Of a DNA stretch of 64,000 nucleotides, positions 25,367 through 42,400 are shown piece by piece. Source of the stretch: Candidatus Hydrogenedentota bacterium (GTDB lineage Bacteria; Hydrogenedentota; Hydrogenedentia; Hydrogenedentales; JAGMZX01); NCBI GenBank assembly GCA_029556545.1, contig JAKQEQ010000098.1:20998-84997 (forward strand), read 5' to 3'. The position numbers and the translations under genes are program-made. Within the stretch, counting starts at the first letter, position 1. Each line of letters starts with the position of its first letter. Below the pieces are notes generated by a model. It was not told the origin of the DNA. It was given only the letters and a program-made list of their open reading frames with translations, and ran no database searches.

Positions 25367-25582
25367 ATGACCGTGGCGGAGAACATCATCGAGCGCGTAC
25401 GCCTCTTGCCGGCGCCGCTCCAGGCGGAAGTCCTGGACTTTGTCGAATTCTTGGCAAACAAGGCGGACGCGGAAGAACGAGAAGCCTGGAGCCGCTTCTC
25501 CTTGGCTCAAGCCTTTCGCGACATGGAATCGGAGGACTGCCTTTATTCAGAACAGGACATAAAGGAACCCGCCAATGATTGA
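25367..25582 (+). CDS. DUF2281-type putative antitoxin
   Basis: A 71-residue acidic protein, MTVAENIIERVRLLPAPLQ, with the helix VLDFVEFLANKA typical of DUF2281 proteins, often found beside toxins. Perfect AAAGGAGG precedes the chosen start. It overlaps the next gene, a PemK/MazF-like toxin, by 8 bases, as in type II toxin-antitoxin pairs. Confidence 0.75.
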   Translation: MTVAENIIERVRLLPAPLQAEVLDFVEFLANKADAEEREAWSRFSLAQAFRDMESEDCLYSEQDIKEPAND

Positions 25583-25922
25583 GGAAGGACAGATCGTCCT
25601 TATCCGCTTTCCCAGAACCGATCTCACACAAGGTAAACTCCGCCCTGCTGTTGTAATTCGGAAACTGCCCGGACCATATGATGACTGGCTTATCTGTATG
25701 ATCTCGACTCAAATCGCGCGCGCCATTGGCGGCTTTGACGAGATCATCAGTGCTGATGATCCGGATTTCGGCAGTTCAGGCCTGAAAACCGAAAGCGTAG
25801 TGCGCATATCGCGGCTGGCAATTGTTGAGCGGCGCGCACTCTCCGGCGCCATTGGCAGGATTCATTCTGAACGCCTTACGCGTATCAGGAAGATCTTATC
25901 TGACTGGATCACTGAGAAGTAA
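25575..25922 (+). CDS. PemK/MazF-family endoribonuclease toxin (putative)
   Basis: A 115-residue protein with the family start EGQIVLIRFPRTDLTQGKLR and the PAVVIRK strand that follows. MazF-like toxins cleave mRNA and are held inactive by the upstream partner. The gene is complete and overlaps its antitoxin. The conserved KxRPAvV segment is present; activity is unproven. Confidence 0.8.
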   Translation: MIEEGQIVLIRFPRTDLTQGKLRPAVVIRKLPGPYDDWLICMISTQIARAIGGFDEIISADDPDFGSSGLKTESVVRISRLAIVERRALSGAIGRIHSERLTRIRKILSDWITEK

Positions 25923-25998: not shown

Positions 25999-27918
25999 AT
26001 GGCAAGTAATTGTGGGATATTGACTGCACTCTGCTTGTGTACAATCGCGGCCTCGCACCCCGCCGCGCCCGCAGACCCGAAGCTGGCGCAGCTCAAATAC
26101 AACCAGCCCGGCCTTGTGGTGGACCTCGGGGTCGGGCTCTGGGCGCAGCCGCTGCCGATGGACTTTGACGGGGACGGGGATTACGACCTCGTGGTGGCCT
26201 GCGCGGATGTGCCGTCAAACGGGGTGTATTTTTTCGAGAACCCCGGCGGCGACGCGAAGTATCCCGTGTCCAAGCCGGCCGTGCGGCTCGGCCCCGCGGT
26301 GCACAACATGACGTGTTCGTACATCGACGGGACAGCCGTGGTCTGCACGCCGGGCAGGCGGTATCCTGATTTTCGGGATCACGGCCTGCGTCACGGCGTA
26401 GCGATTCCGTTTACGGCCACCTTTCACGCGGGCCGCGACAACCAGTGGAAGTACTGCGACTACGACGGCGACGGCCTGGTCGATCTGGTCATCGGCGCGA
26501 GCGATTGGCGTGAATACGGTTGGGACAACGCCTACAACGAGAAGGGCGAGTGGACCCACGGCCCGCTGCGCGGCTACGTCTACGTGGCGCGCAACACGGG
26601 CACGAACGACGCGCCGGTGTACGCGGCGGCGGAACAGGTGTTGGCCGATGGCAGGCCGGTGGACGTATACGGCGCGCCGTCGCCGAATTTCGCGGATTTT
26701 GACGGCGACGGCGATCTCGACCTGATCTGTGGCGAGTTTCTGGACAAACTGACGTACTTCGAGAACGTGGGCACGCGCACCGAGCCGGTCTACGCCGCTG
26801 GGCGCTTTCTGGAACACGACGGGGACGTGCTGCGCATGGACCTCCAGATGTTGCAGGTCGTCGCGCTGGATTGGGACCACGACGGGGACGTGGACCTCAT
26901 TGTGGGCCAGGAAGACGGGCGCGTGGCGATCATCGAGCACACGGGCAAGGTCGATGACGGCATGCCGGTGTTCTTGCCGCCGCGCTTCTTCCGGCAGGAG
27001 GCGGACGCGGTGAAGGTCGGCGCGCTGGCGACCCCGTACAGCTTCGACTGGGACGGCGACGGCGACGAGGACCTTATCTGTGGCGACACGGCGGGCTACA
27101 TCAACTTTCTCGAGAACCTGGACGGCGGCAGTCCGCCGAAATTCGCGCCGCCGGTGTACCTCGAAGCCGACAGCGAAACGATCCGCATCCAGGCCGGCCC
27201 AAACGGATCGATCCAAGGACCGGCGGAGGCGAAGTGGGGCTACACCGTCCTCTGCGTCGCCGACTGGGACCACGACGGCCTGCCGGACATCGTTATCAAC
27301 AGCATCTGGGGCGAGGTGCTCTGGTTCCGCAATCGCGGCGCGCGGACGCGGCCCGAACTCGAACCTGCCCGGCCCATCGAAGTAGCGTGGGAGGGATTCG
27401 CGCCGAAACCGGCGTGGACGTGGTGGCAACCGAAGGGCAACCAACTCGTGACGCAGTGGCGCACAAGCCCGGTGGTCATCGACCTGAACGGAGACGGCCT
27501 GAACGACCTCGTCATGCTCGACCACGAGGGTTATCTCGCGTTCTTTGAGCGCACACGCGCCGGGGAGGAACTGGCGCTGCTTCCGGGCAAGCGCATCTTT
27601 CTCGATGAGGACTTGACGCCCTTGCGCTTGAACGACCGCGAGGCGGGCAAGAGCGGGCGGCGCAAGTTTTGTCTGGTCGATTGGGACGGCGACGGACGGC
27701 TCGATATCCTGGTGAACGGCAAGAACATTGATTTCCTGCGCAACATCGGCGACGACGCGCGCCCGTATGTGTTCCGCAACGAAGGCATGGTCGATTCCCG
27801 CATACTTGCGGGACACACTACCTGCCCGACCGTCGTCGACTGGGACCGCAACGGGGTTCCCGATCTGCTCATCGGCGCGGAAGATGGTTTTCTCTACCAC
27901 ATGCGCAACCCGCGCTAG
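25999..27918 (+). CDS. Secreted FG-GAP/VCBS repeat beta-propeller protein
   Basis: A 639-residue protein with a weak signal peptide (to about residue 24). It has nine calcium-loop motifs of the D-x-D-x-D-G-x-x-D type, such as DFDGDGDYDL, DYDGDGLVDL, DWDGDGDEDL and DLNGDGLNDL, spaced as in FG-GAP or VCBS repeats that build a beta-propeller. No enzyme domain is seen, so it probably binds a ligand or partner outside the cell. Confidence 0.85.
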   Translation: MASNCGILTALCLCTIAASHPAAPADPKLAQLKYNQPGLVVDLGVGLWAQPLPMDFDGDGDYDLVVACADVPSNGVYFFENPGGDAKYPVSKPAVRLGPAVHNMTCSYIDGTAVVCTPGRRYPDFRDHGLRHGVAIPFTATFHAGRDNQWKYCDYDGDGLVDLVIGASDWREYGWDNAYNEKGEWTHGPLRGYVYVARNTGTNDAPVYAAAEQVLADGRPVDVYGAPSPNFADFDGDGDLDLICGEFLDKLTYFENVGTRTEPVYAAGRFLEHDGDVLRMDLQMLQVVALDWDHDGDVDLIVGQEDGRVAIIEHTGKVDDGMPVFLPPRFFRQEADAVKVGALATPYSFDWDGDGDEDLICGDTAGYINFLENLDGGSPPKFAPPVYLEADSETIRIQAGPNGSIQGPAEAKWGYTVLCVADWDHDGLPDIVINSIWGEVLWFRNRGARTRPELEPARPIEVAWEGFAPKPAWTWWQPKGNQLVTQWRTSPVVIDLNGDGLNDLVMLDHEGYLAFFERTRAGEELALLPGKRIFLDEDLTPLRLNDREAGKSGRRKFCLVDWDGDGRLDILVNGKNIDFLRNIGDDARPYVFRNEGMVDSRILAGHTTCPTVVDWDRNGVPDLLIGAEDGFLYHMRNPR

Positions 27919-28304: not shown

Positions 28305-29420
28305 TTGGCGGTCAAGGAGCGAGTATTCAATAATCGTGCGCGAAAGGTCTTTCGCAAGCGTATCCCCCGAAGCGAAATCACTTCGGGTCTTTTCTTGTTG
28401 GTGCTCCTGATCCTTGCCGGCGTGTGGTTCGCTTCCCGGAAGAATGCGTATGACCCCGCCGAGCGCGACCTCTCGATGGAGGCGCTCGTATCCAGCACCG
28501 TCGAAGACACCCTGTATCGAACGCCGCTCCAGCGCTGGGTCGAGCCGGGTTCCGTCGCGGCGGTCGGCGGGCCGCCGTCCCTCGGCGTTTTCCCGGAAGG
28601 CATTCTCTACGACGGCTGGCGGCCATCTTCCGGGTTGCGGGAATTCGACGCCGACACCCTATACGAGAAGATCAATGGAGCGGCGGAACAGTATATCCAG
28701 TTCGGCTTCGAGCGCCTGTACTTCATCTCCCTGGCGAAGGCGGGCACGGAACATGATATCAGCGTCGAAATGTACGACATGGGGAGTTTCGAGAACGCGC
28801 TGGGCATCTTCGCGGCGCAGCGGGACGCCACGCGGTCCACGGAACGGCTCGGTCCCGCGAATTACTACCCGACGGAGGCGGGGGCGGTGGCGCTGCTCGG
28901 CCCGTATTACCTGAAACTGTTTGGCACGAGCAACGACACGGTCATCCAACAGAAGGCGATCCAGTTGGTCGCGGCGCTTGGACCGCTGGCCGAAGGCGAG
29001 GGATCGATGCCGCCCGCGTACAGCATTTTGGCGGACGGGTTGGGTCTGCCGTTCGACGCGATCGCATACGAGAAGACGGACGTGTTTCAATTCAGTTTTG
29101 CCAAAGATTTCTGGTTTGGCGTACCGCCGGAAGCGCCGGATGCGCGGTATTTCGTCCACACGGCGGCGGATGAGGCGGCGGCGGCGGACTTGCTGACCAA
29201 GCTAATCGAGAATAACAAGTATGACTACGTTGTTGTCATTGACGGAGAGGAAGGCGTGCTCATGAAGCACGCGTTCCTCGAAACCTATATGACGCTGAGT
29301 AGGCGCGGGCGGCACGTATTTGGCGTCGAGAATGCGCCGGATGACGCCGTCGCCGCCGCGTGCCGGGATAAACTAGCGGGAGTCCTGCATGGCGAAGCAG
29401 AAGGATATCCAGCATCCTGA
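28305..29420 (+). CDS. DUF6599-type membrane-anchored protein
   Basis: A 371-residue protein with one hydrophobic segment near the N-terminus (SGLFLLVLLILAGVWFAS). The stretch LYEKINGAAEQYIQFGFERL is typical of DUF6599 proteins, whose function is unknown to me. I chose the TTG at 28305 because GGAG lies 7 bases before it; a longer ATG frame at 28161 starts in a repeat-rich gap. It overlaps the DUF362 gene by 32 bases and heads a cluster of redox genes, so a link to that electron-transfer unit is likely by context only. Confidence 0.72.
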   Translation: MAVKERVFNNRARKVFRKRIPRSEITSGLFLLVLLILAGVWFASRKNAYDPAERDLSMEALVSSTVEDTLYRTPLQRWVEPGSVAAVGGPPSLGVFPEGILYDGWRPSSGLREFDADTLYEKINGAAEQYIQFGFERLYFISLAKAGTEHDISVEMYDMGSFENALGIFAAQRDATRSTERLGPANYYPTEAGAVALLGPYYLKLFGTSNDTVIQQKAIQLVAALGPLAEGEGSMPPAYSILADGLGLPFDAIAYEKTDVFQFSFAKDFWFGVPPEAPDARYFVHTAADEAAAADLLTKLIENNKYDYVVVIDGEEGVLMKHAFLETYMTLSRRGRHVFGVENAPDDAVAAACRDKLAGVLHGEAEGYPAS

Positions 29421-30429
29421 GTACCAGACGGCGCCGATGACACGGCGTCGGTTCGTCGGGCGGCTGCTGACCGCAGGCGGCATCGGCGGCGCCGTCACGT
29501 ATCTGGCGACCGCGCCGGAGGGTTGGCCTCTCTCGATGAAGGACAAGAGCGGCCTGCGCAGTCAGCCGGTGCTTAAGCCGTTCACTCTACAGGACTACCG
29601 CGTCGCGAAGCCCTCCGGGGCCGCGGACATCGGCATCGGCCGCTACGGCGAGCCCGTCGAGAAGCTGCGGCGCGCGCTGGACGCCATTGGCGGCCTCACG
29701 CATTACATCCAGCCCGGCGACATCGTGCTCGTGAAGCCGAATGTGGCGTTCGACCGCGCGCCGAATCTCGGGGCTACCTCGAACCCTGAACTCGTCGAGG
29801 AACTGGTCCGCATGCTGCTCGTGGATTGCCGTGCGCAGGAGGTGCGAGTCGCGGATAATCCGATCGAGTCCCCGGCGGACTGTTTTGCGAAGAGCCGCAT
29901 CCGCGAGGCGACCGAGCAGGCGGGCGGGCGCGTGTACCTGCCGGACTCGAACGCCTTCAAGATGCTCCACACGCCGGGCGCGGACCTGATCCGCAACTGG
30001 TGGTTCTTCCATCGCCCGTTTACCAACGTGGACAAGGTTATCGGCCTCGCGCCGGTGAAGGACCACAATCTGTGCAGCGCATCGATAGGGCTGAAGAACT
30101 GGTACGGCCTCCTGGGCGGCACGCGCAACCAGTTCCACCAGGACATTCACGGGATTGTGTCGGACCTCGCGATCATGATTCGCCCGACGCTGACCATTCT
30201 CGACGGGACGCGCGTATTGATGAAGAACGGCCCGACCGGCGGCGACCCCTCGAACGTGAAGGCGGGCGACGCCGTACTGGCGAGTCTCGACCCCGTGGGC
30301 GCGGACGCCTGGGCCTTCGAGCACCTGCTCGAACGGGGCCGGGACTATCCGGAATACCTGGCGAAGGCCGAGGCGAAGGGAGCGGGCAAGGTGGATTGGT
30401 CGGGGAGGATCAAGGAAATCACGGGTTAG
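29389..30429 (+). CDS. Tat-type DUF362 domain protein
   Basis: A 346-residue protein with an RRR-F motif ([15 protein letters not shown]) of the twin-arginine type, so probably exported folded. The DUF362 core includes [17 protein letters not shown] and [17 protein letters not shown]362 proteins often sit next to 4Fe-4S proteins; their reaction is not established as far as I know. It overlaps the DUF6599 gene and is followed 19 bases later by a membrane iron-sulfur protein. Confidence 0.85.
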
Positions 30430-30448
30430 AGCGGAACAGGTGAAGTAC

Positions 30449-32092
30449 ATGCGCAAACTCGGTGAATACCTGGCGGCTTTCTCGATCAGGAGAGCCCTGC
30501 GCATCACCAACATCCGCATTTTGTCCCAGGCATTCTTCTTCTTCATCTTTCTCTTCTCCGTCTGGGCGACCTGGACCTCGCGCGTTGGCGGCTACCCCGT
30601 GTCGCGCCTGCTTGAGATGGACCCGCTCGTCATGATCGCCACGATGCTCTCGACCGGGCACGTCTATCGCTACCTGGGATGGGGGCTGCTGGTGCTTGCG
30701 TTGACGCTGCTGTTCGGGCGCGTCTTCTGCAACTGGATATGCCCCTACGGCACGCTGCACCAGTTTGTCGGGTGGCTGTTCAACATCGGCACGGGCAAGA
30801 AGCGCATCGAGGACAACCAGTACCGGCCCATTTACCATCTCAAATACGTGATCCTCATCATCTTTCTCTTGATGGCGGCGATGGGCGCGCTGCAAATCGG
30901 CCTGCTCGATCCAATCTGCCTCATGTACCGCACCTTCGCGACGGTGGTCGCGCCCGCCACGGACCTCGGCATCGACAAGGCGTCCGAGGCGGCGCACGGC
31001 GTGGGCGTCGATACGCTCTGGCTCGACAACCTGAAATTCGGGCCCGGCGTCGAGCGGCGGGTGTTTGTCGGATCGTTCTGGATCGCGGTGATGCTCTTCG
31101 GCCTTGTGGCCATGAACGTCGTCATTCCGCGCTTCTTTTGTCGCGTCTTGTGCCCGCTAGGCGCGTTGTTGGGCGTGTTTTCCAGGTTTGCCCTGTTTCG
31201 CATCAATCGCGACGTTCATAAATGCACCGACTGCAACTTATGTTTGACCCGCTGTGAGGGGGCCTCCGACCCGCAGGCGCTCCTGCGCCAGAGCGAGTGT
31301 TTCTCGTGCATGAACTGCATCGACGATTGCCCCGAGGACGCGCTGTCCTTCACCATGCTGCGCCAGGATACGAAGCAGGTGAAACTCGCGCCGGACCTCT
31401 CCCGGCGGAAGCTGGTCTTCGCGTCCGTGGCCGGGGTGCTGGCGTATCCGTTCCTCAAGAACCACGGCGTGAACACCGATGAGCATTTCTCGCCGAAATT
31501 GATTCGACCGCCCGGTTCCGTCGAGGAAGACCAGTTCCTCGCGAAGTGCATCAAGTGCGATCAGTGCATCAACGCATGCCCGACGAACGTGCTGCAACCG
31601 GCGACTTATGAGGAGGCGGGGATCGAAGGATTATGGACCCCCGTCATGAACTTCCGCATCGGCCACTGCCAATTGAAGTGCACGCTCTGCTCGGAGGTGT
31701 GCCCGACCGGGGCTATCCGCAAGATCACCGCCGAGGAAAAGCTGGGCAAAGGCGCGTACGCGGAACAGGGCCCTATCCGCCTCGGCACCGCCTTCTACGA
31801 CCTCGGGCGCTGCCTGCCGCACGCGATGGAAATCCCGTGCGTCGTCTGCGAAGAGGTGTGCCCCGTTTCGCCCAAGGCCATCCAGACGAAGGACGTGGAG
31901 GTGAAAGACGTCTTCGGCAAAGTCGTCGTATTGAACAAGCCGTTCATCGTGCCGGACCTCTGCATCGGGTGCGGCATCTGCGAGAAGGAATGCCCCGTGC
32001 GGGACGAACGCGCGGTGTACGTCACGGCCGTGGGGGAAAGCCGGTCCGACGAGCGCAAACTGCTGCTCAAACATCGTGAAGTGGTCGGCTGA
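30449..32092 (+). CDS. Membrane polyferredoxin resembling a NapH-NapG fusion
   Basis: A 547-residue protein. The first half has four membrane segments with two CxxxCP motifs at their ends ([14 protein letters not shown] and [15 protein letters not shown]) and two ferredoxin groups ([11 protein letters not shown] and [12 protein letters not shown]), like NapH/CcoG/NosR. The second half begins with an internal twin-arginine-like segment, [14 protein letters not shown], followed by four more cluster groups ([42 protein letters not shown]), like NapG. AGGTGA favours the ATG at 30449 over a GTG nine bases earlier. It is placed to pass electrons from quinol to an extracytoplasmic partner such as the aldo/keto reductases downstream. 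Confidence 0.82.
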
Positions 32093-32113
32093 CCATAAGG
32101 TGAGGCGCGAAAG

Positions 32114-33319
32114 ATGAATAGCGAACATATCCCCCGGCGTGATTTCATGAAGCAGACCGCGGGCTACGGCGCGGGTCTGGGCTTGGTCGGGAACGGCGCG
32201 CGTGATTGGCTCGCGCAGGCGCCGTCGCCCGAAGAGAAGGTGCCGCGAAAACAACTTGGCACTACCGGGGCGGACATCCCGATTATCCTCATGGGCGGAT
32301 CACAGAAGTTCGACCCTCGCTACGACAAGGTGCTTCATCGCGCTTTTCAACTGGGCGTCGATTACATCGACACGGCGCAGATGTACGCGCAAGGGCAATC
32401 GCAGAAGACGATTGCGCCGTTCATCAAACAGATTGGCGACCGCAAGAAGCTGTGGATCACGTCGAAAGTGAAATTGGTCGGTTCGCGCGCCACGCCCGAG
32501 GGGTTCAAGGCGAATTTGGATAAGTGCCGGGAGGACCTCGAAACCGACTACCTCGACATGTTCTTCCTGCACATGATCACCGAGGAGCGGCTGCTGGGCC
32601 CCGACTACATCCGCATGGCCGAGGAACTGAAGAGAGCGGAAAAGATACGCTTCTTCGGCTTTTCCTGTCACGACGGCAACGTCGCGGAACTCATGACGGC
32701 CGCGGCGAAAGCGGGCGGCGGCATAGACGCGGTCATGTTCCGCTATAATTTCCGCCAATACGGCGACGTGGCGCTGAACAAGGCCATTGACGCCTGCAAG
32801 GCCGCGGGAATCGGGCTCATCGCGATGAAGACCCAGGCGTCCGTGCCCGCGGACCTCGAGGCCGTCGTCAAGTTTCAGTCGCGGAACTTCACGCTGGGCC
32901 AGGCGAAACTCAAATCGGTCTGGGCCGATGAGCGGATTGACGCGGCGGTCTCCGGGTTGACCAATATCGAGCTCGTGATGGAGAACACCGCGGCGGCCAT
33001 GTCGCCAGTGAAACTAAGCATGGACGAATTCATGCAACTTAACCGGCTCGCGGCGTTGACGGCGCACGCGCACTGCCTGGGCTGCAACCAGCGGTGCGAG
33101 CCGCGCGCCAATGGGCTGGGCATCGCGGATATGCTGCGCTATCTGATGTATCATGAGTGCTACGGCGAGTCCGAAGAGGCCCGCGCGCTGTATCGCGCCC
33201 TGCCCCGCGAGGCGCGGGACTTCGAGGCTATCGACCTCAGTGACGCGACGACGGCCTGCCCCCAGGGCATCCGCATCGCGGAACGACTGGCGCAAGCCAG
33301 GCGCGTATTGAGCGCGTGA
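32114..33319 (+). CDS. Tat-type aldo/keto reductase with C-terminal Fe-S motif (1 of 3)
   Basis: A 401-residue protein. A twin-arginine signal (PRRDFMKQTAGYGAG) precedes an aldo/keto reductase barrel in which the catalytic tetrad is intact: D86, Y91, K118 and H153. The C-terminus has C321-x2-C324-x3-C328 and C382-Pro, as in iron-sulfur members of COG1453. GGTGAGG lies before the ATG. Family enzymes usually use NADPH in the cytoplasm, so export is odd; electrons could instead come through the Fe-S motif from the membrane polyferredoxin. The substrate is unknown. Confidence 0.85.
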   Translation: MNSEHIPRRDFMKQTAGYGAGLGLVGNGARDWLAQAPSPEEKVPRKQLGTTGADIPIILMGGSQKFDPRYDKVLHRAFQLGVDYIDTAQMYAQGQSQKTIAPFIKQIGDRKKLWITSKVKLVGSRATPEGFKANLDKCREDLETDYLDMFFLHMITEERLLGPDYIRMAEELKRAEKIRFFGFSCHDGNVAELMTAAAKAGGGIDAVMFRYNFRQYGDVALNKAIDACKAAGIGLIAMKTQASVPADLEAVVKFQSRNFTLGQAKLKSVWADERIDAAVSGLTNIELVMENTAAAMSPVKLSMDEFMQLNRLAALTAHAHCLGCNQRCEPRANGLGIADMLRYLMYHECYGESEEARALYRALPREARDFEAIDLSDATTACPQGIRIAERLAQARRVLSA

Positions 33320-33382
33320 TGACAGGTAGTTCATATTCCCGTCATGGTAGTAAAGTGAATCGAACCTGAAAGAGACTTGGCG

Positions 33383-34588
33383 ATGAGCACACACCCCATG
33401 GATCGGCGCGACTTCTTGAAGAACACCGTGGCCGGCGGCGTGGGACTCGGCATGCTCGGCGCCGCCGGGGGCGCGCAGGCGGCGCAAGGGCCCGCGCCCG
33501 GCGGGAAGGTCCCGCGAAGACAACTTGGCGCCACCGGCGCGGATGTCCCGATCCTTCTCATGGGCGGAACACAGAAGTTTGACGACCGCTATGATAAGAC
33601 GCTGCATCGTGCCTTCGAACTCGGCGTTGATTACATCGACACGGCGCGGGAATACGCGCAAGGACAGGCGCAGAAGACGATCGGCACGTTCATGAAGCAA
33701 GTCGGCGACCGCAAGAAGATGTGGGTAACCTCGAAAGCGACGCTGGTCGGCGCCGACGCCACGCCGGAGGGGTTCAGGACCGGCGTGGACCAGTGCCTTG
33801 AGGGACTCGAAACCGACTACCTTGACATGTTCTTCATGCACATGATCACCGACGAGCGGCTGTTCGGCCCCGATTTCATCCGGACGAGCGAGGAACTGAA
33901 GAAAGCGGGGAAGATACGCTTCTTCGGCTTTTCCTGTCACGACGGTAATTCGGCGGAACTCATGGCCGCGGCGGCCAAGATGGGCGGCGGGGTTGACGCC
34001 ATCATGTTCCGCTACAATTTTCGCGAGTACGGCGACGTGGCGCTGAACAAGGCCATCGACGCCTGCAAGGCCGCCGGAATCGGCTTGATAGCGATGAAGA
34101 CCCAGGCGTCCGTTCCCGCGGACCTCGATGCCGTTGTCGAGTTTCGGTCGCAGGACTTCACGCTGGGCCAGGCGAAATTGAAAGCGGTCTGGGCCGACGA
34201 GCGGATTGACGCCGCCGTTTCCGCCATGACCAATGTTAACCTCGTCACGGAGAACACTGCGGCGGCCATGTCGCCCGTGAAACTCAGCATGAACGAATTC
34301 ATGCAACTGAACCGACTGGCGGCGTTGACGGCGCACGCGCACTGCCTGGGCTGCAAGCAGCGGTGCGAGCCGCGCGCAAACGGCCTGCGTATCGCGGACA
34401 CGTTGCGCTACCTCATGTACCATGAATGCTACGGCGAAACCGACGAGGCCCGCGCGCTGTATCGCGCGCTGCCGCGTAAGGCGCGGGATTTCAAGGCTAT
34501 CGACCTCAGTGAAGCGACCGCGGCTTGCCCCCAGGGCATCCGCATCGCGGAACGATTGGCCCAAGCCAGGCACGTGTTAACCGCCTGA
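33383..34588 (+). CDS. Tat-type aldo/keto reductase with C-terminal Fe-S motif (2 of 3)
   Basis: A 401-residue close paralogue of the preceding gene. The twin-arginine motif is MDRRDFLKNTVAGG; the tetrad residues lie in YIDTAREYAQGQ, TSKATL and MFFMHMI; the cysteines are CLGCKQRCEP and ACPQGI. I chose the ATG at 33383 because the third paralogue has the same start and leader. A TTG six bases upstream is in frame but less likely. Confidence 0.85.
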   Translation: MSTHPMDRRDFLKNTVAGGVGLGMLGAAGGAQAAQGPAPGGKVPRRQLGATGADVPILLMGGTQKFDDRYDKTLHRAFELGVDYIDTAREYAQGQAQKTIGTFMKQVGDRKKMWVTSKATLVGADATPEGFRTGVDQCLEGLETDYLDMFFMHMITDERLFGPDFIRTSEELKKAGKIRFFGFSCHDGNSAELMAAAAKMGGGVDAIMFRYNFREYGDVALNKAIDACKAAGIGLIAMKTQASVPADLDAVVEFRSQDFTLGQAKLKAVWADERIDAAVSAMTNVNLVTENTAAAMSPVKLSMNEFMQLNRLAALTAHAHCLGCKQRCEPRANGLRIADTLRYLMYHECYGETDEARALYRALPRKARDFKAIDLSEATAACPQGIRIAERLAQARHVLTA

Positions 34589-34600
34589 TGACAGGCAGTC

Positions 34601-34622
34601 CATACAGTCCATATCGTCCAAC
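34601..34622 (+). repeat. Short tandem microrepeat before the third aldo/keto reductase
   Basis: AGTCCATACAGTCCATATCG contains tandem GTCCATA-like units and is related in style to 17099-17135. Confidence 0.4.
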
Positions 34623-34661
34623 ATGACCGTAAACCAAATCGAACCTGAAGGAGACCTAGCG

Positions 34662-35873
34662 ATGAGCAAGCACCCCATGGACCGGCGCGACTTCCTGAGG
34701 AACACCGTTGCCGGCGGCGTGGGATTCGGTGTGCTGGGCGCCGCGGCCGGAGAGGCGATGTCTCAAGCCCCCGCCGCAAACGAAGGGAAAGTGCCGCGCA
34801 AGCCGCTCGGGTCCACGGGCGAGGTCCTGCCCATCATCCAGATGGGCACCTGCCAGACCATGGACCTCAAGTACGATCGGCGGCTGCACCGCTGTTTCCA
34901 GATGGGCGTGGACCATATCGACACCGCCCAGATGTATGCGGACGGACAAGCCCAGAAGGCGGTCGGCGTATTCAACAAGCAGATTGGCGACCGCAAGAAG
35001 CTGTTCATTGCGACCAAGGTGTATCTGGGCGTACAGGAGGCCAGTGCGCAACGGTTCAAAGAGGAACTCGACAAGTGCCTCCACGACATGGAATTGGAGT
35101 ATGTCGACCTCTTCTATATGCACATGGCCCATGACGAACGGTATATCGAACCCGAGTTCATTCAACTGGGCGAGGACCTGAAGAAGAGCGGCAAGTCGCG
35201 TTTCTTCGGGTTTTCCACGCACGACGGGTCCGTGCCGCGCATGCTGACCAAGGCGGCCGAGTTAGGCGGCGGCATCGACGCCATCCTTTTCCGCTATAAC
35301 TTCCGGCAATACGGAAACGTCGAGTTGAATCGCGCCATCGACGCAGCGAAGAAGGCCGGAATCGGCCTTGTCGCCATGAAAACCCTGGCGGCGATCCCCG
35401 ATGACTCGGAGGAAATCGTGCCGTTCCGGTCGGAAAACTTCAACCTGGTCCAGGCGAAGCTCAAGGCGGTCTGGGCCGACGAGCGCATCGACTCGATATG
35501 CTCCCAGATGTCGAGTGTCGAGCACGTGATGGAGAACACCGCCGCCGCCATGTCGCCCGTCAAACTCTCGATGGACGAATACATGCAACTCCACCGCCTG
35601 GCCGCGCTTACCTCCGAACACTACTGCACCGGCTGCCACCACATCTGCGAATCGCGCGTCGCCGGTAAGCTTCGCATCGCCGATCAGATGCGTTATCTCA
35701 TGTACCACGAGAGCTACCACGAGTGCGAAAGCGCGCGCAAGCTCTATGATGCGCTGCGACCGGAGGAACGGGACTTCGACCGCGTTGACCTCGCCGAGGC
35801 GACCAAGGCATGCCCCCAACGGATCGACATCCGGGAACGGCTGGCAAAGGCGCGCCAAGTGCTTTCCGCCTGA
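34662..35873 (+). CDS. Tat-type aldo/keto reductase with C-terminal Fe-S motif (3 of 3)
   Basis: A 403-residue member of the tandem trio and the most divergent. Its start has GAAGGAGA 8 bases upstream. The signal is MDRRDFLRNTVAGG; tetrad positions are in HIDTAQMYADGQ, TKVYL and YMHMA; the Fe-S cysteines are CTGCHHICES and ACPQRI. Three copies with different cysteine surroundings suggest different substrates or a hetero-oligomer, but neither can be told from sequence. Confidence 0.84.
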   Translation: MSKHPMDRRDFLRNTVAGGVGFGVLGAAAGEAMSQAPAANEGKVPRKPLGSTGEVLPIIQMGTCQTMDLKYDRRLHRCFQMGVDHIDTAQMYADGQAQKAVGVFNKQIGDRKKLFIATKVYLGVQEASAQRFKEELDKCLHDMELEYVDLFYMHMAHDERYIEPEFIQLGEDLKKSGKSRFFGFSTHDGSVPRMLTKAAELGGGIDAILFRYNFRQYGNVELNRAIDAAKKAGIGLVAMKTLAAIPDDSEEIVPFRSENFNLVQAKLKAVWADERIDSICSQMSSVEHVMENTAAAMSPVKLSMDEYMQLHRLAALTSEHYCTGCHHICESRVAGKLRIADQMRYLMYHESYHECESARKLYDALRPEERDFDRVDLAEATKACPQRIDIRERLAKARQVLSA

Positions 35874-36176
35874 TCGCCGAAGCGCGCGCCGTCCTGGATC
35901 CGCCGTCGCGTAGGGGGGCGCGTCTGCATCCGTGGCCGCGGGCGGCGCCGATTTTCGCAGTTTAAGCAGCACATTGCGCGAGAATTGCTTGAATCGAGAG
36001 TAGCATGCTGGTACCATGTTTTCTGGTCATGGCTGGGTTCGGTTTCTCTTGAGCCGCCGATGTCGTGATCGCTGCGTACTTGTGTAAGTTGAGGCCTTTC
36101 GTCCAACGAAAGAAACTGCGGGGTGGTGCTGATGCGACTCCATTCGCGGCAAGCACTCGGGAAAAGGATTGCGACT
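35874..36176. other. Non-coding gap with one hairpin
   Basis: This 303-base gap after the aldo/keto reductases has no supported gene. A perfect hairpin CTTTCGT-CCA-ACGAAAG lies at 36096-36112, and AAGGA just upstream of 36177 is the ribosome site of the next gene. The hairpin lacks a T tract, so it could be a leader structure or a weak terminator. Confidence 0.45.
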
Positions 36177-39100
36177 ATGCGTTCCTCTTGGTGGTTACTG
36201 ATCATTGCTGTGGTGGCCGGCGGTGTTTCGTCCGCGACGGCCGACGACGTGATGTACAACCTGACGGTGGAAGTTGTGGGATCGGGCACGACGAACCCGC
36301 CGCCCGGAGTCCACGAGTACCTTGAAGGCGGCGTGCTTTTTGTCACGGCCATCCCGGATTCGGGTTGGCGTCTGGACCACTGGGAAGGAGACGCCTCCGG
36401 CAGCGACACGTCGGTGGAGATCGTCATGGACGCCGACAAGACGGTCACGGCGGTGTTTGTAGAGTGCGGGTTTACCCTCACGATAGCCGTCGAGGGCAAC
36501 GGCACCACGGACCCGGCGCCGGGGGTCCACACGTACTCGCAGGGTCAGGGGGTCATCCTCATGGCGATACCGGACGCCGGCTGGGCGTTCGACCTTTGGG
36601 AAGGCAGCGTAACCGGCACGAACCCTTCCATCATCGTTATCATCGATTGTGACGTATCGGTAACCGCCGTCTTCGCCGAGGGCGGTTATGAACTCAGTAT
36701 CAGCGTGACAGGTAACGGCACGACCTCGCCCGCGCCCGGTGTGTGGAACTACCTGCCGGGCCGCACCGCCGTGGTTTCCACGACGCCCGACTCCGGCTGG
36801 ACCTTTGACCATTGGGAGGGCGATCACACCGGAACTTCGCCCCTCGCCGAAGTTGTCATGGACGATAACAAGGCGGTAACGGCCGTGTTTGTCGAGTTGG
36901 CCACGTACACCTTGACCACCGCCGTCGTAGGGGACGGATCGATCACGCCGGCCCCCGGCGCGCACCAGTACAACGCCGGCCAAACGGTCTTCATCACGCC
37001 AACTCCCAACCCCGGCGCCGCTTTCGACCACTGGGAAGGCGATCTTACCGGGACCAACCCTTTCAACCAGTACCTCATCATGGACTCGGACAAGTCGGTA
37101 ACCGCCTACTTTGCGACCGCCGATTATACGTTGACCATCAGTGTGACCGGCGAAGGCGCCACGTCTCCGCCGCCCGGAAGCCACCCGATGATCGACGGTC
37201 GCGAGGTCTCAATTGTCGCTTATCCCACGATGAGCGGATGGGCCTTCAGCCATTGGGAGGGCGACCTCACCGGAACGGAAAACCCGGCGACGGTCCTGAT
37301 GGACAGCGACAAGAGCATTACCGCCGTCTTTACGGTCGCCTACTTTCTCGAAACCTCCGTCGTAGGCGAGGGCACGCTCGATCCGCCCCCGGGCTTCCGC
37401 TGGCTCCCGGCGGGGTCCGAGGTTACCCTCACCGCCATTCCCGCGACCGGCTACCACCTCGACCGTTGGGAAGGCGACCTCACGGGTTCGGAGAATCCCG
37501 TCACCTTCACGATGGACGGCAACAAAACCATCACGGCGGTCTTTGCCGGGTCGCCGAACGCGTACTTGACAACCCTCGTGGTCGGGAGCGGCACGGTGGA
37601 CCCCGAGGGAACCAACGTCTACCTCTACGGAACCGAAGTCGTCATCACGGCCACGCCGGACCCCCTCTGGTACTTCTCCGAATGGCAGGGCGACCTCACC
37701 GGCTCGGAAAATCCGGCCAGCATCATCCTCGATGGCGACAAGACCGTGACGGCGGTCTTCGATCAGGTCCAGACCTACTCGCTTGTCACCAGCGTGGTCG
37801 GCGGCGGCACGGTGGACCCGCCAGGTACTTCGTTCCACGAGCAGGGAACCACGGTGACGCTGACGGCGTTTCCCGACCCGGACTTGGAGTTCAGCGAGTG
37901 GCAAGGCGACATCGAGAGTACCGACAATCCGGTGGACTTGCTGATGGACTCGGACAAGGCCGTCACGGCGGTATTCACGGGAGGACCCGCGGAGGGCGAG
38001 GGCGAGGGCGAAGGGGAGGGCGAGGGGGAACCGCCGGTCGAATTCCCCGTGAATTTCTGCGCGGACATGGACTGGTTAACGGCGATCGTCCAGGACGAAA
38101 GCCCCTCGGGTCTCAAATGGTTGGCTGATCTGCTGGGCGAGGACGCCGCGTTGCTATTCATGTTCGCGTGCAACGTCGCCGATATCAACGGGCAGTGGAA
38201 CGAGGTGGAAGACCTGCCTGGCCCCAACGGCATGCTGGACGGTCGCTACGAACTTCGGGTGGTACAGGAGTTGTTGAACAACCCCGGCCCCTATCTGGGG
38301 CTCGAATTGGGGACGCTCCCGTGCCAGGCGCAGCCTGGCGTGCCCACCGCCGCGGTCATGGGCGCGTACCTCCAGAATTACACGAATATCTACACCCCGG
38401 AGTTGCACGAACTCGTCACCGAGACGCTGCCGCTCTTGTGGGGGCTGTTGCAGAGCTACGAGCCGTCTGTCCCGCCCCTGACCCCCGAATTGCAGGAGAC
38501 GTTGAACGCCCTGTTTCCGACTTTGGTCAGGGTTGTGGCCGCCTACGCGACTCTGGGCGATGAGGACTCGATGGCGCTGGTTCTGAAGGTCGCGGCATTG
38601 GCCGGCTTCTGCGACTTGATCGCTCCAGGATCGTGTCTCGTCAACCCGCCGCCGACGACCGATCCCGCGGATTACGCGACGCTTGACGGCATCCTGGCGT
38701 CCGAGGGCGACGCGGACGGCGACGGCTGGACTAATCGCCTCGAATACGAGCAACTCGAACCGCTTCGACCCGCGGCATATCTCCGTCGCGCGCTGGACCC
38801 CTGCCGCACGCCCTTGACACCGGGCGAAGGCGAAGGTGAAGGCGAGGGCGAAGGCGAAGGTGAGGGCGAAGGTGAAGGCGAAGGTGAAGGCGAGGGTGAG
38901 GGTGAAGGCGAAGGAGAGGGCGAGGGTGAAGGGGAGGGCGAGGGCGAGGGCGAGGGTGAAGGGGAAGGTGAGGGTGAGGGTGAGGGAGACCCGTGCTACA
39001 GCGAGTTTCACACGGCGGACCAGAACGAGAACAACTTTATCGAGTTAACGGAACTCCTGCGCGTGATTCAGTTCTATAACTCCGGCGGTTTCCGCTGCGC

Positions 39101-39311
39101 CGAGAATCCCGGCGATACCGAGGACGGCTATGTGCCGGGGCCCGGCGCGAATCAGTCCTGCTGCGCCCACGACAGCGATTACGCGCCCGCCGGACCCGAT
39201 TGGACCATCGGCCTGACGGAGTTGCTGCGCTTGATTCAGTTCTATAATAGCGGCGGCTACCATGCTTGCCCCGAGGCGCAGACCGAGGATGGATTCTGCC
39301 CCGGACAGTGA
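36177..39311 (+). CDS. Large secreted protein: eight InlB-like repeats, Gly-Glu linkers, dockerin-like tail
   Basis: A 1044-residue protein with a clear signal peptide (MRSSWWLLIIAVVAGGVSSA). Residues about 26-601 hold eight repeats of about 72 residues with the pattern YxLTxxVxGxG...PPPG...WEGDLTG...MDxDKTVTAVF, like divergent InlB B-repeats. A short Gly-Glu tract (about 605-617) leads to a domain of about 260 residues with DGDADGDGWTNRLE. A second tract has 27 Gly-Glu pairs (38823-38984). The C-terminus has two copies of ELLRxIQFYNSGG with Asp/Asn-rich loops, like dockerin halves. I chose the ATG at 36177 for its AAGGA site and signal peptide. It is likely a surface or scaffold protein. Confidence 0.85.
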   Translation: MRSSWWLLIIAVVAGGVSSATADDVMYNLTVEVVGSGTTNPPPGVHEYLEGGVLFVTAIPDSGWRLDHWEGDASGSDTSVEIVMDADKTVTAVFVECGFTLTIAVEGNGTTDPAPGVHTYSQGQGVILMAIPDAGWAFDLWEGSVTGTNPSIIVIIDCDVSVTAVFAEGGYELSISVTGNGTTSPAPGVWNYLPGRTAVVSTTPDSGWTFDHWEGDHTGTSPLAEVVMDDNKAVTAVFVELATYTLTTAVVGDGSITPAPGAHQYNAGQTVFITPTPNPGAAFDHWEGDLTGTNPFNQYLIMDSDKSVTAYFATADYTLTISVTGEGATSPPPGSHPMIDGREVSIVAYPTMSGWAFSHWEGDLTGTENPATVLMDSDKSITAVFTVAYFLETSVVGEGTLDPPPGFRWLPAGSEVTLTAIPATGYHLDRWEGDLTGSENPVTFTMDGNKTITAVFAGSPNAYLTTLVVGSGTVDPEGTNVYLYGTEVVITATPDPLWYFSEWQGDLTGSENPASIILDGDKTVTAVFDQVQTYSLVTSVVGGGTVDPPGTSFHEQGTTVTLTAFPDPDLEFSEWQGDIESTDNPVDLLMDSDKAVTAVFTGGPAEGEGEGEGEGEGEPPVEFPVNFCADMDWLTAIVQDESPSGLKWLADLLGEDAALLFMFACNVADINGQWNEVEDLPGPNGMLDGRYELRVVQELLNNPGPYLGLELGTLPCQAQPGVPTAAVMGAYLQNYTNIYTPELHELVTETLPLLWGLLQSYEPSVPPLTPELQETLNALFPTLVRVVAAYATLGDEDSMALVLKVAALAGFCDLIAPGSCLVNPPPTTDPADYATLDGILASEGDADGDGWTNRLEYEQLEPLRPAAYLRRALDPCRTPLTPGEGEGEGEGEGEGEGEGEGEGEGEGEGEGEGEGEGEGEGEGEGEGEGEGEGEGEGDPCYSEFHTADQNENNFIELTELLRVIQFYNSGGFRCAENPGDTEDGYVPGPGANQSCCAHDSDYAPAGPDWTIGLTELLRLIQFYNSGGYHACPEAQTEDGFCPGQ
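38823..38984 (+). repeat. Hexanucleotide tract coding 27 Gly-Glu pairs
   Basis: A purine-only-biased run of GGN-GAR codons. Third positions vary (GGC, GGT, GGA, GGG; GAA, GAG), which suggests selection on the protein rather than recent slippage alone. Confidence 0.9.
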
Positions 39312-39455: not shown

Positions 39456-42400
39456 ATGAAGAACCATGGGTTGCGGGGGCAAAAGGGACAGGTGTGCGCG
39501 CTGCCGCCGTTTCTCCTGCTGGTTGCGGCGTTACTGCTGACCTCGGGCGCGGCGGACGCCGCCCTCACCGGCTATTACTATTACTCGACGGGCGGCACCG
39601 CGCCGAATTTCGGGTCGTTGATCATGACCCGATCCGACGCCGATGTGAATTTTAATTGGGGTACCGGAAGCCCCGGCGGGGGCGTGCCGGTCGAAAACTT
39701 CTGCGTGAGTTGGCGGGGCGTGCTGACGATTCCTACCGAGGGCGACTGGACTTTTTACACGTTGTCGGACGACGGTGCCCGGCTATACGTTGACGGCCAG
39801 CGTATTATCGAGTTCTGGCAGGATCACGGCGCCACTGTCGAACAATCGGGCACAAGATTTCTGACGGCAGGCAAGCATGACATTGTGCTGGATTACTACG
39901 AGAACACCGGCGGCGCACGGATCGAACTTCGCTATTCCGGGCCGGGGGTGGGAAAACAAATCATTCCGAGTTCGGCCACGTCGCCCTTGCCCACCAGCCC
40001 CACGGGCCTCCTCGGGCGCTGGTACACGGTAAACGACTGCGCCGGAAACTGGGGAACGCTGGCCGGAAACCGCGTGGACGGAAACATCAGTTTTGGGGAT
40101 GGGTTCATCCCACCATACGGGTTGCCGGTGGAGTATTTTGGGGGGCGCTGGGTCGGGCGCATCAATATTCCGACGACGGGGAACTGGACGTTCTACAGCA
40201 GGACCGACGATGCAGTGCGTTTTTATATCCAGGAAGACGGTAGCGGCAACCTCATGAGAAGAATTGATCACTGGGGCGGCGGCGGCGCCGAGTACAGTTC
40301 TCCCCCGATTTTTCTTCACGGCGGTCTCCACAATATCGCCGTGGATTTCTTTGAATGCACGGGACAGCAATATATGGAGCTGCGCTGGCAAGGGCCGAAC
40401 CAAGGGAAAGACATCGTCCCACAGAGCGCGCTTTTCCAGCACCAGAACGGCCTGATCGCCGAGTTCTTCAATAATCAAGCTGTCTCAGGTGTTCCGGCCG
40501 TATTCCGCAACGACTACTATCTCAAGTTCAGCAGCTGGGGCGGTCCCCCGCAGGACAGCATCGGCGGGGACAACTTCTCCGTCCGTTGGCGCGGAAAAAT
40601 ATATATTCCCACCAGCGGTGACTACACGTTCTACTCGACGACGGATGACGGTACCGAGTTATGGGTAAATGGGCAACGGATTATTGACTGGTTTTCGTCA
40701 AATAATGGGATGACGGAGCGCACTAGCTCGCTAATCACTTTGACGGGGGGACGGAGATACTTCATCGACTGGCGAATGCGTGAGAATGACGGCGGAGCGG
40801 GGGCTGAATTGCGTTGGTCGGGCCCGGGGATCGCGAAGCAGTTTGTCTCCGACCAGAACCTGTTCCCCATCCTGAACGAGACCCCGACGGGCATCGCCCT
40901 CGACAAGAATTACTTCTACGACGATGAGGGTCTGAACGCGACGGTCGGCAACCTGTCCACGACGGATCCGGACAATACGTCCGGGGGCTCCCAATCGCAC
41001 ACGTACACGCTGGTCGCCGGCGTGGGCGACACCCACAACGGTTCGTTCTCGATTTCCGGCAATCAACTGCGCGTGAACAACGCCGCGATGGCGCTCGGCA
41101 CCTACAGTGTTCGCATAAGGACCACGGACAACGGCCAGATTCCCGACAGGCTCTACACGGAGCAGGCGTTCACTATCTCGTGCCTTACCGCGCCGACGGT
41201 GACGAACGTGACGAGCAGTCTGGCGAATGGGTACTACAAGGCGGGGCAGGTGGTGCCGGTGCAGATCACCTTCAGCAAGAACGTCACCGTGCAGTCCGGT
41301 CCGCCTTATCTCGCGCTGAACAGCGGTGGCGCGGCCACGGCGACGTATGCGAGCGGGAGCGGCACGAGTACGCTCACCTTCAATTACACGGTTGCGGCGG
41401 GCGAGAACTCGACGGACCTCGACTATATGGGCGTGGGCGCGTTGAATGCGGGTGGCGGCACAATCCGGGACGTTAACGGCAAGGACGCCGTCCTGACGCT
41501 GGCGGCCCCGGGCGCCGCGGGTTCGCTGGGCTTCAATAAGGACCTCGTGATTGACACGATCGCGCCGACGGTATCATCGATCGTTCGGCAGACGCCGTCG
41601 GGCCAGGCCACGAACGCGGCGCAGGTCACGTGGCGGGTGACGTTCGGCGAGGACGTGACCGGGAGCGTCGGCGCGACCGACTTCACGTTTACACCCACCG
41701 GCACGCTCAGCGGGTACTCCGTGCAGAGCGTGACGCCGTTCGGGAGCGGGGGAACGACGTATGACGTGCTGTGCAATACGGGCACGGGCGACGGCATATT
41801 GCGCCTGGACGTGGTGACGCCCGCCGCGGTCATTTCCGATCTGGCGGGGAACAACCTGACGGCCAATTACACCACGGGCCAGACGTATATCGTCGATAAG
41901 ACGGCGCCCACGCCGCCTGCGGCGAACGCACCGGCCTATGACAACGCGAGCCCGATCCCCGTGGGCTACGGCGCTTCGACGGACAACCTTACGGGGGTGG
42001 CGAGTGTGCGGCTTTGGTACAAGAAGGGCGCGGGCGGCACGTGGACCGATTCCGGGATGTCGGGCGTTGCGGGGGGCGGCACATTCAACTTCATCGGGAT
42101 GACGGGCGAGGACACGTACTATTTCGACGTCGTGGTGACCGACAATGCGGGCAACAGCAGCCCAGCGGCCTCTGGCGACGGGGATTCGAGCACCATCTAC
42201 GACACGACGCCGCCGACGGCGCCCTCGGCGAGCTCGCCCGCTTACGACAACGCGAGCCCGATTCCGGTGACCTACGGCGTCTCGTCGGACAATCTGAGCG
42301 GCGTGGCGCTCGTCCGACTCTGGTACAAGAAGGGCGCCGGCGGCGCGTGGACCAACTCGGGTCTGTCGGGCGTGCCGGGCGGCGGCACGTTCAACTTCGC

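Follow-up and report, generated by a model that had tools for sequence, protein, structure and literature searches.

Described relatives of the locus

The LarA superfamily of 2-hydroxyacid racemases and epimerases (DUF2088; Pfam clan CL0471) depends on the nickel-pincer nucleotide (NPN), a cofactor for which no chemistry other than redox-neutral racemisation is known. In about 15% of genomes NPN is made through larBCE and LarA is absent; the protein that uses the cofactor in these genomes is unidentified, and a non-LarA NPN protein is expected (2024 study, PMC11796402). DUF362 and DUF2088 belong to one Pfam clan (PMC11770544), and DUF362 has been used in publications as an outgroup to LarA or noted beside CBM9 and Fe-S domains. 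Among membrane conduits, the closest described relatives of the locus presented here are the polyferredoxins of NapH-NapG architecture that are dual-targeted by the Sec and twin-arginine translocation (Tat) pathways, both of which are needed according to reporter fusions; passages of that article take the fusion for a quinol dehydrogenase pair, NapH joined to NapG, and no partner enzyme is named in these passages (Tooke et al. 2017, PMC5449189). The locus comprises six genes at positions 28305-35873 on the + strand of a 64,000-nucleotide stretch (the window) of contig JAKQEQ010000098.1 from a Candidatus Hydrogenedentota bacterium, which encode a DUF6599 protein, a DUF362 protein, a NapH-NapG fusion polyferredoxin (NapHG), and three aldo/keto reductases (AKRs). 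Searches of the literature gave no mention of DUF6599, and no four-gene cluster of this make-up is described in the literature that could be searched, in agreement with an earlier note on this DNA whose author knew of no described pathway of this kind. What is new is the proposed catalytic pair of AKR and DUF362, the NapH-NapG conduit on its own being of a known kind. The most informative part, missed by the earlier note, is the LarA fold of the DUF362 protein together with its genetic tie to nickel-pincer biosynthesis. We consider it about an even call that the six genes together make up a single quinone-linked redox module outside the cytoplasm, in which electrons would pass through NapHG between quinone and an exported NPN-type DUF362 enzyme with an Fe-S AKR.

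Conservation of the gene set

All six open reading frames are present as the earlier note had described, adjacent and on one strand. The DUF6599 gene runs 32 bp into that for DUF362 and the later gaps are 10, 21, 57, and 34 bp, so that no more than 57 bp separate any neighbours, a packing like that of a single operon. When 84,980 species genomes were scanned with an alignment of the AKRs, 78 loci were found; gene order was counted at the 54 that have 3.8 kb or more of sequence upstream of the AKR. DUF6599, DUF362, NapHG, and AKR follow one another in the same order and on the same strand at 41 of the 54, with median gaps of 83, 43, and 101 bp. This is a linkage of the neighbours far beyond chance, where rare linkage had been named in the earlier note as the result that would speak against its proposal. 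By their record titles, which include some apparently unreliable labels of metagenome-assembled genomes, the loci belong to about a dozen phyla (Acidobacteriota, Planctomycetota, Hydrogenedentota, SAR324, Desulfobacterales, Gammaproteobacteria, Verrucomicrobia, Myxococcota, Latescibacterota, Schekmanbacteria, and others). One locus titled Bacillota (L066) has the same flanking genes as planctomycete contigs (L066, L069, and L072 compared) and is probably a mislabelled metagenome-assembled genome. The distance matrices of the four proteins correlate with r values of 0.86-0.92 (40 loci), indicating that the set evolves largely as a unit, and in the window's own order (61 genomes) each of the 13 genomes with a close AKR also has NapHG (P 5e-5). 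Clustering of the flanks returned lar genes as recurrent neighbours in several lineages, and otherwise only genes common to closely related contigs. A plasmid search with DUF362 gave two distant matches only.

These observations bear on the simplest alternative, that ordinary cytoplasmic NAD(P)H-dependent AKRs lie beside unrelated genes by accident. AKRs are common, and at 12 of the 54 loci the AKR is found without any of the three partners; the ordered set, the correlated distances, and an RR-x-hydrophobic motif ahead of the barrel in 72 of the 72 AKRs with a readable upstream frame already disfavor this explanation, which we regard as highly improbable.

The set has a second flavour, in which AKRs at about 30% identity and with a two-cluster ferredoxin tail adjoin DUF6599 (e.g. 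L043, L046, and L047); at L043 DUF362 and NapHG accompany the two-cluster AKR as well. These distant AKRs share the barrel and the DUF6599 neighbour with the present ones, and differ in having eight C-terminal cysteines (2x[4Fe-4S]) rather than four.

Predicted fold and conserved motif of the DUF362 protein

The DUF362 protein (29389..30429, + strand; PF04015, 3.3e-38) begins with a twin-arginine signal (TRRRF), in line with the Tat-type assignment in the earlier note. In its AlphaFold2 (AF2) model (pLDDT 88.7) residues 85-316 of 346 adopt the fold of the LarA N-domain. Foldseek found two matches under 1e-3, both of them LarA-family structures (7s91, 1.1e-4; 9q3j, 2.1e-4), and VIA-align placed eleven LarA-family entries at Z 16.7-14.2, with everything else at 5.7 or below. 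On the strength of the model, then, DUF362 is a protein with a LarA N-domain fold.

The core motif of the protein, K224-x-H226-x9-K236-N-x2-G240-x9-H250 (30058..30138, + strand), is proposed from alignments as the NPN site. Its residues K224, H226, K236, G240, and H250 are invariant in 46 of 46 cluster-type and paralogue proteins, and in a set of 30 divergent DUF362 proteins the only invariant residues are Lys116, Asn118, Lys224, His226, Lys236, Gly240, and His250. All 30 contain H-x9-K-x(12-28)-H, with a constant spacing of 10 between His226 and Lys236 and the next histidine 13 to 29 residues further on. The six LarA sequences compared all have H-x9-K-x15-H (His174-x9-Lys184-x15-His200; Lys-His spacing 16), the numbers Lys184 and His200 agreeing with the 6c1w sequence. 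In LarA these positions are the catalytic histidine, the lysine that tethers NPN, and a histidine ligand of the nickel (PMC12611868). The H226-x9-K236-x13-H250 segment of DUF362 parallels the spacing of His174, Lys184, and His200 in LarA, a likeness at the level of sequence in which the alignment after His226 is ambiguous. His250 had been considered a clear equivalent of His200, and this assignment was withdrawn: DUF362 apparently lacks the His200 helix, and the GNPxHxDM region of LarA is another place to which His250 might align. A role of His250 as nickel ligand is only plausible.

DUF362 thus resembles LarA in its predicted N-domain fold, in the H-x9-K-x(n)-H signature, and in a genetic link to larB, larC, and larE, and differs from it in the absence of the C-domain, in the apparent loss of one of the two catalytic histidines, in carrying a Tat signal, and in having the genes of an electron-transfer chain around it. 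Elsewhere in the order of the window, DUF362 proteins (L141 and L158; G000:C170 and G027:C141) carry a pair of ferredoxin motifs within one polypeptide, in keeping with a redox role of the family.

Linkage to NPN biosynthesis genes

Genes for NPN biosynthesis lie beside the set in several lineages. At four gammaproteobacterial loci (L081, L083, L091, and L097) larC-larE-larB stand directly upstream of it on the same strand; LarC and LarE of L097 score over the NCBIfam cut-offs and its LarB is a partial match, while LarB of L064 is over the cut-off. The latter gene, in a member of the Holophagae, is downstream of the AKR, LarE is found beside the set in L067 (Planctomycetota), LarA is downstream of it in L079, and larB-larC adjoin a DUF362-NapHG paralogue in L129 and L130. 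Among the sampled Gammaproteobacteria LarC is present in 10 of 369 genomes, including all three that have the cluster, compared with 7 of the 366 others (P 1.4e-5; these genomes are related to each other, and the overstatement of independence in such P values is to be held against the association). Across many phyla, 38 of 43 cluster genomes have LarC (in two cases as fragments that score below the cut-off), and only 23 of them have LarA. Fifteen cluster genomes, including a closed Latescibacterota chromosome (L109, CP070763), have LarC and LarE (LarE over the cut-off) with no detectable LarA, and therefore another protein should use NPN there. All 15 carry the LarA-fold DUF362 in this set, and DUF362, distinct from LarA in sequence and related to it in fold, would fit the expected non-LarA NPN protein. 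The proposal that NPN is bound by DUF362 is well motivated and, in our judgment, rather probable.

A number of control genomes were also inspected. Cyanobacteria and haloarchaea are groups with larBCE and no LarA, and in Synechococcus elongatus and Haloferax volcanii LarC is accompanied by DUF362 and not by LarA. In Corynebacterium glutamicum and Methanocaldococcus jannaschii LarC is present with neither LarA nor DUF362, so a further NPN user may exist.

Several results weigh against NPN on DUF362, some from the protein and some from the distribution of the genes. Profile comparison between DUF362 and LarA fell short of significance (hhalign P 0.09), the DUF362 profile had no match among PDB sequences, and the Lar_N model did not match the DUF362 protein of the window; a real LarA from L097 matches both Lar_N and LarA_C. 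With the sequence searches having failed, it is the fold comparison that carries the LarA argument. The loop beyond His226 can be aligned with LarA in more than one way, the position of LarA His108 appears to be Asn157 in DUF362, and no LarA C-domain was found (only PF04015 matched, and the likeness in fold extends no further than about residue 316 of 346). As for gene distribution, a LarA gene stands divergently beside larCEB in L091 and L097, so those larCEB genes may serve LarA. LarC is near-universal in the window's order, being found in 52 of 60 genomes with or without the cluster, which makes its co-occurrence useless as a test within that order; seven of the eight LarC-negative genomes there still have some DUF362, and for DUF362 in general no association with LarC was seen in Hydrogenedentota. 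Four cluster genomes (G008, G063, G092, and G099) have neither LarC nor LarE over the cut-off, although G008 has LarA, pointing to assembly gaps as a likely cause in part, and Bacteroides ihuae has DUF362 without LarC.

In an alternative reading, the exported AKR would be the sole enzyme of a quinone-linked system, wired to NapHG by its [4Fe-4S] site, and DUF362 would have the LarA fold but be free of NPN; it might bind a different ligand, or serve in structure or assembly. The gene set, the export signals, and the conduit are all independent of NPN, and the cluster genomes in which neither LarC nor LarE is over the cut-off, the missing C-domain, and the marginal sequence likeness to LarA speak for such a system. 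Harder to reconcile with it are the H-x9-K...H residues, which are among the most conserved features of DUF362 and coincide with the NPN-holding residues of LarA, the larCEB genes directly upstream in Gammaproteobacteria, where LarC tracks the cluster, and the 15 genomes that have LarC and LarE and no detectable LarA to use the cofactor. We judge the NPN-free explanation unlikely, and of the alternatives it is the one to be taken most seriously.

The aldo/keto reductases

AKR1 (32114..33319, + strand; PF00248, 1.2e-25), AKR2 (33377..34588, + strand; PF00248), and AKR3 (34623..35873, + strand; PF00248) are paralogues, AKR1 being 78% and AKR3 60% identical to AKR2; the PF00248 E-values of the three range from 1e-22 to 1e-25. 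Among the products of the six genes Pfam also finds Fer4-type domains. The AF2 model of AKR2 (pLDDT 91.2) consists of a (beta/alpha)8 barrel followed by a helical C-terminal domain that holds four cysteines. Its closest folds are L-galactose dehydrogenase (8usu and 7smi) and Tm1743 (5dan), with a VIA-align Z of 30.8 to 8usu over 276 residues (rmsd 2.8; AKR2 residues 44-326). The catalytic tetrad D88-Y93-K120-H155 (AKR2 numbering) is invariant in 61 of 61 aligned homologues, as are Cys323, Cys326, Cys330, and Cys384, which bears out the earlier note in describing three Tat-type AKRs with intact tetrads and a C-x2-C-x3-C...CP motif. In AKR2 this motif (C323-x2-C326-x3-C330 ... C384-P; 34343..34528, + strand) is probably a single [4Fe-4S] site. 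The present proteins share the barrel and the D-Y-K-H tetrad with the AKR superfamily and are set apart from it by the Tat signal, the C-terminal four-Cys domain, an altered NAD(P) pocket, and the two further invariant residues H188 and K241. For the Tat signal the NCBIfam TAT model gave 15.2 bits on AKR2, just below the cut-off of 16.7, and export of both AKR and DUF362 through Tat is predicted only.

The earlier note had reasoned that NADPH is not expected outside the membrane and that the AKRs may work independently of it. The NAD(P)-contact positions, numbered by the usual AKR scheme, give this some support. In the alignment to NADP-binding Tm1743, Asn167 is replaced by Cys187/His188, Gln190 by Met or Phe, and Tyr216 by Met240, and the Lys270 and Arg276 of the pocket have no equivalents, whereas Asn293 of the cofactor-loop motif is kept in 60 of 61 AKRs. 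Alternatively, the AKR may be exported together with bound NAD(P), as in glucose-fructose oxidoreductase, whose tightly bound NAD(P)H is co-exported by Tat. An AKR of this type would cycle the bound cofactor internally, its Fe-S site and NapHG would only re-reduce or re-oxidise it, and DUF362, NPN, and LarA would be metabolic neighbours. The AKR fold with its intact tetrad, the retained Asn293, and the LarA genes that adjoin the cluster in L079, L091, and L097 are consistent with this, but most of the other NAD(P)-contact positions are changed, and conservation of the four genes across phyla argues that DUF362 belongs to the mechanism. We consider an internally cycled NAD(P)H improbable.

The polyferredoxin conduit and the DUF6599 protein

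The earlier note's membrane protein with six or more Fe-S clusters can be refined to a NapH-NapG fusion (30440..32092, + strand), with matches to the NCBIfam napH (2e-27, residues 210-305) and NapG (6e-25, residues 321-529) models. The NapH-like membrane part contains two CX3CP motifs and, on the cytoplasmic side, two [4Fe-4S] motifs; the NapG-like part after it has four [4Fe-4S] motifs, and the 28 cysteine columns that are invariant among 40 homologues fit two CX3CP and six [4Fe-4S] motifs. A twin-arginine stands immediately ahead of a hydrophobic segment (RR in 34 and KR in 5 of the 40 homologues, from aligned columns), matching its place ahead of the last (fifth) transmembrane segment in the dual-targeted polyferredoxins; this 22-residue Tat-type motif and segment (31394..31459, + strand) would put the NapG-like part outside. 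Fusion order, internal RR segment, CX3CP motifs, and six [4Fe-4S] motifs are those given for the dual-targeted polyferredoxins in passages of PMC5449189. In contrast to the NapGH quinol dehydrogenase, NapHG scores below the curated NCBIfam cut-offs (96 against 213 bits for napH and 88 against 269 bits for NapG), and no nap genes are among the neighbours read. By homology, NapHG would exchange electrons with quinone. For the route from quinol through the polyferredoxin to the AKRs that the earlier note had suggested, the export signals and the quinone-type conduit speak in favor, while its direction from quinol to substrate and its sugar or ketone substrates gained no support.

The DUF6599 protein (28305..29420, + strand; PF20244, 5.4e-24) has one hydrophobic segment near the N-terminus, which agrees with its description in the earlier note as membrane-anchored and suggests a single anchor with an extracytoplasmic domain.

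Related loci and neighbouring genes

Another DUF362-NapHG pair, about 34-41% identical and without an adjoining AKR, is present in the genome of the window (L044, G000:C151, 7546-9995), and about 25 genomes of its order have pairs similar to it. In a genome of the same genus (G001), the stretch between NapHG and the AKR3 orthologue holds a remnant of 67 residues that matches the C-terminus of AKR2 (L031, 7242-7442), indicating that an AKR paralogue decayed there. A conserved gene resembling HMG-CoA lyase is near a distant AKR (L047, 13110-14081; PF00682) and, in another genome, beside a DUF362-NapHG pair (L048, 6439-7380). In the window, the six genes are preceded by an FG-GAP protein (25999-27918) and a short open reading frame that by eye resembles a PemK/MazF-type toxin (25575-25922), and directly followed by large exported-looking repeat proteins (36123-39311 and 39456-44561), one with a long GEGEGE linker.

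Proposed mechanism and implications

In the mechanism that we favor, NPN would be made by LarB, LarC, and LarE and loaded onto DUF362 in the cytoplasm, and the loaded protein would leave folded through Tat with its NPN, the AKR with its C-terminal [4Fe-4S] site being Tat-exported as well. DUF362 may then move a hydride to or from an exported hydroxy or carbonyl substrate, and the AKR [4Fe-4S] site and NapHG would accept or supply the two electrons singly. From homology and the published reporter data for the family, NapHG is expected to use its approximately six [4Fe-4S] clusters to carry electrons between the quinone pool and the outer membrane surface of the cytoplasmic membrane. The passage of two electrons one at a time would mean that NPN performs net redox chemistry. 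DUF6599 may act as a docking or assembly part, and since DUF362 is without the LarA C-domain, a partner, either the AKR or DUF6599, may on a speculative view complete its active site. The contact between AKR and DUF362 and the identity of the substrate are set down here as we infer them, and electrons could run either way along the chain. The full proposal, that DUF362 is the missing non-LarA nickel-pincer family and that its Tat-exported NPN serves quinone-coupled redox together with the Fe-S AKR and not racemisation, is a tentative one to which we give somewhat less than an even chance.

A four-gene redox system found across about a dozen phyla stands independently of the NPN question. By fold, invariant motif, and gene linkage the locus points to DUF362, a widespread family so far without a known function, as a non-LarA user of NPN, and the question of which protein uses NPN in LarA-less genomes becomes directly testable. 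Should NPN indeed act as part of a respiratory chain on the far side of the membrane, this would be a new kind of quinone-linked module and, to our knowledge, the first nickel-pincer redox enzyme.

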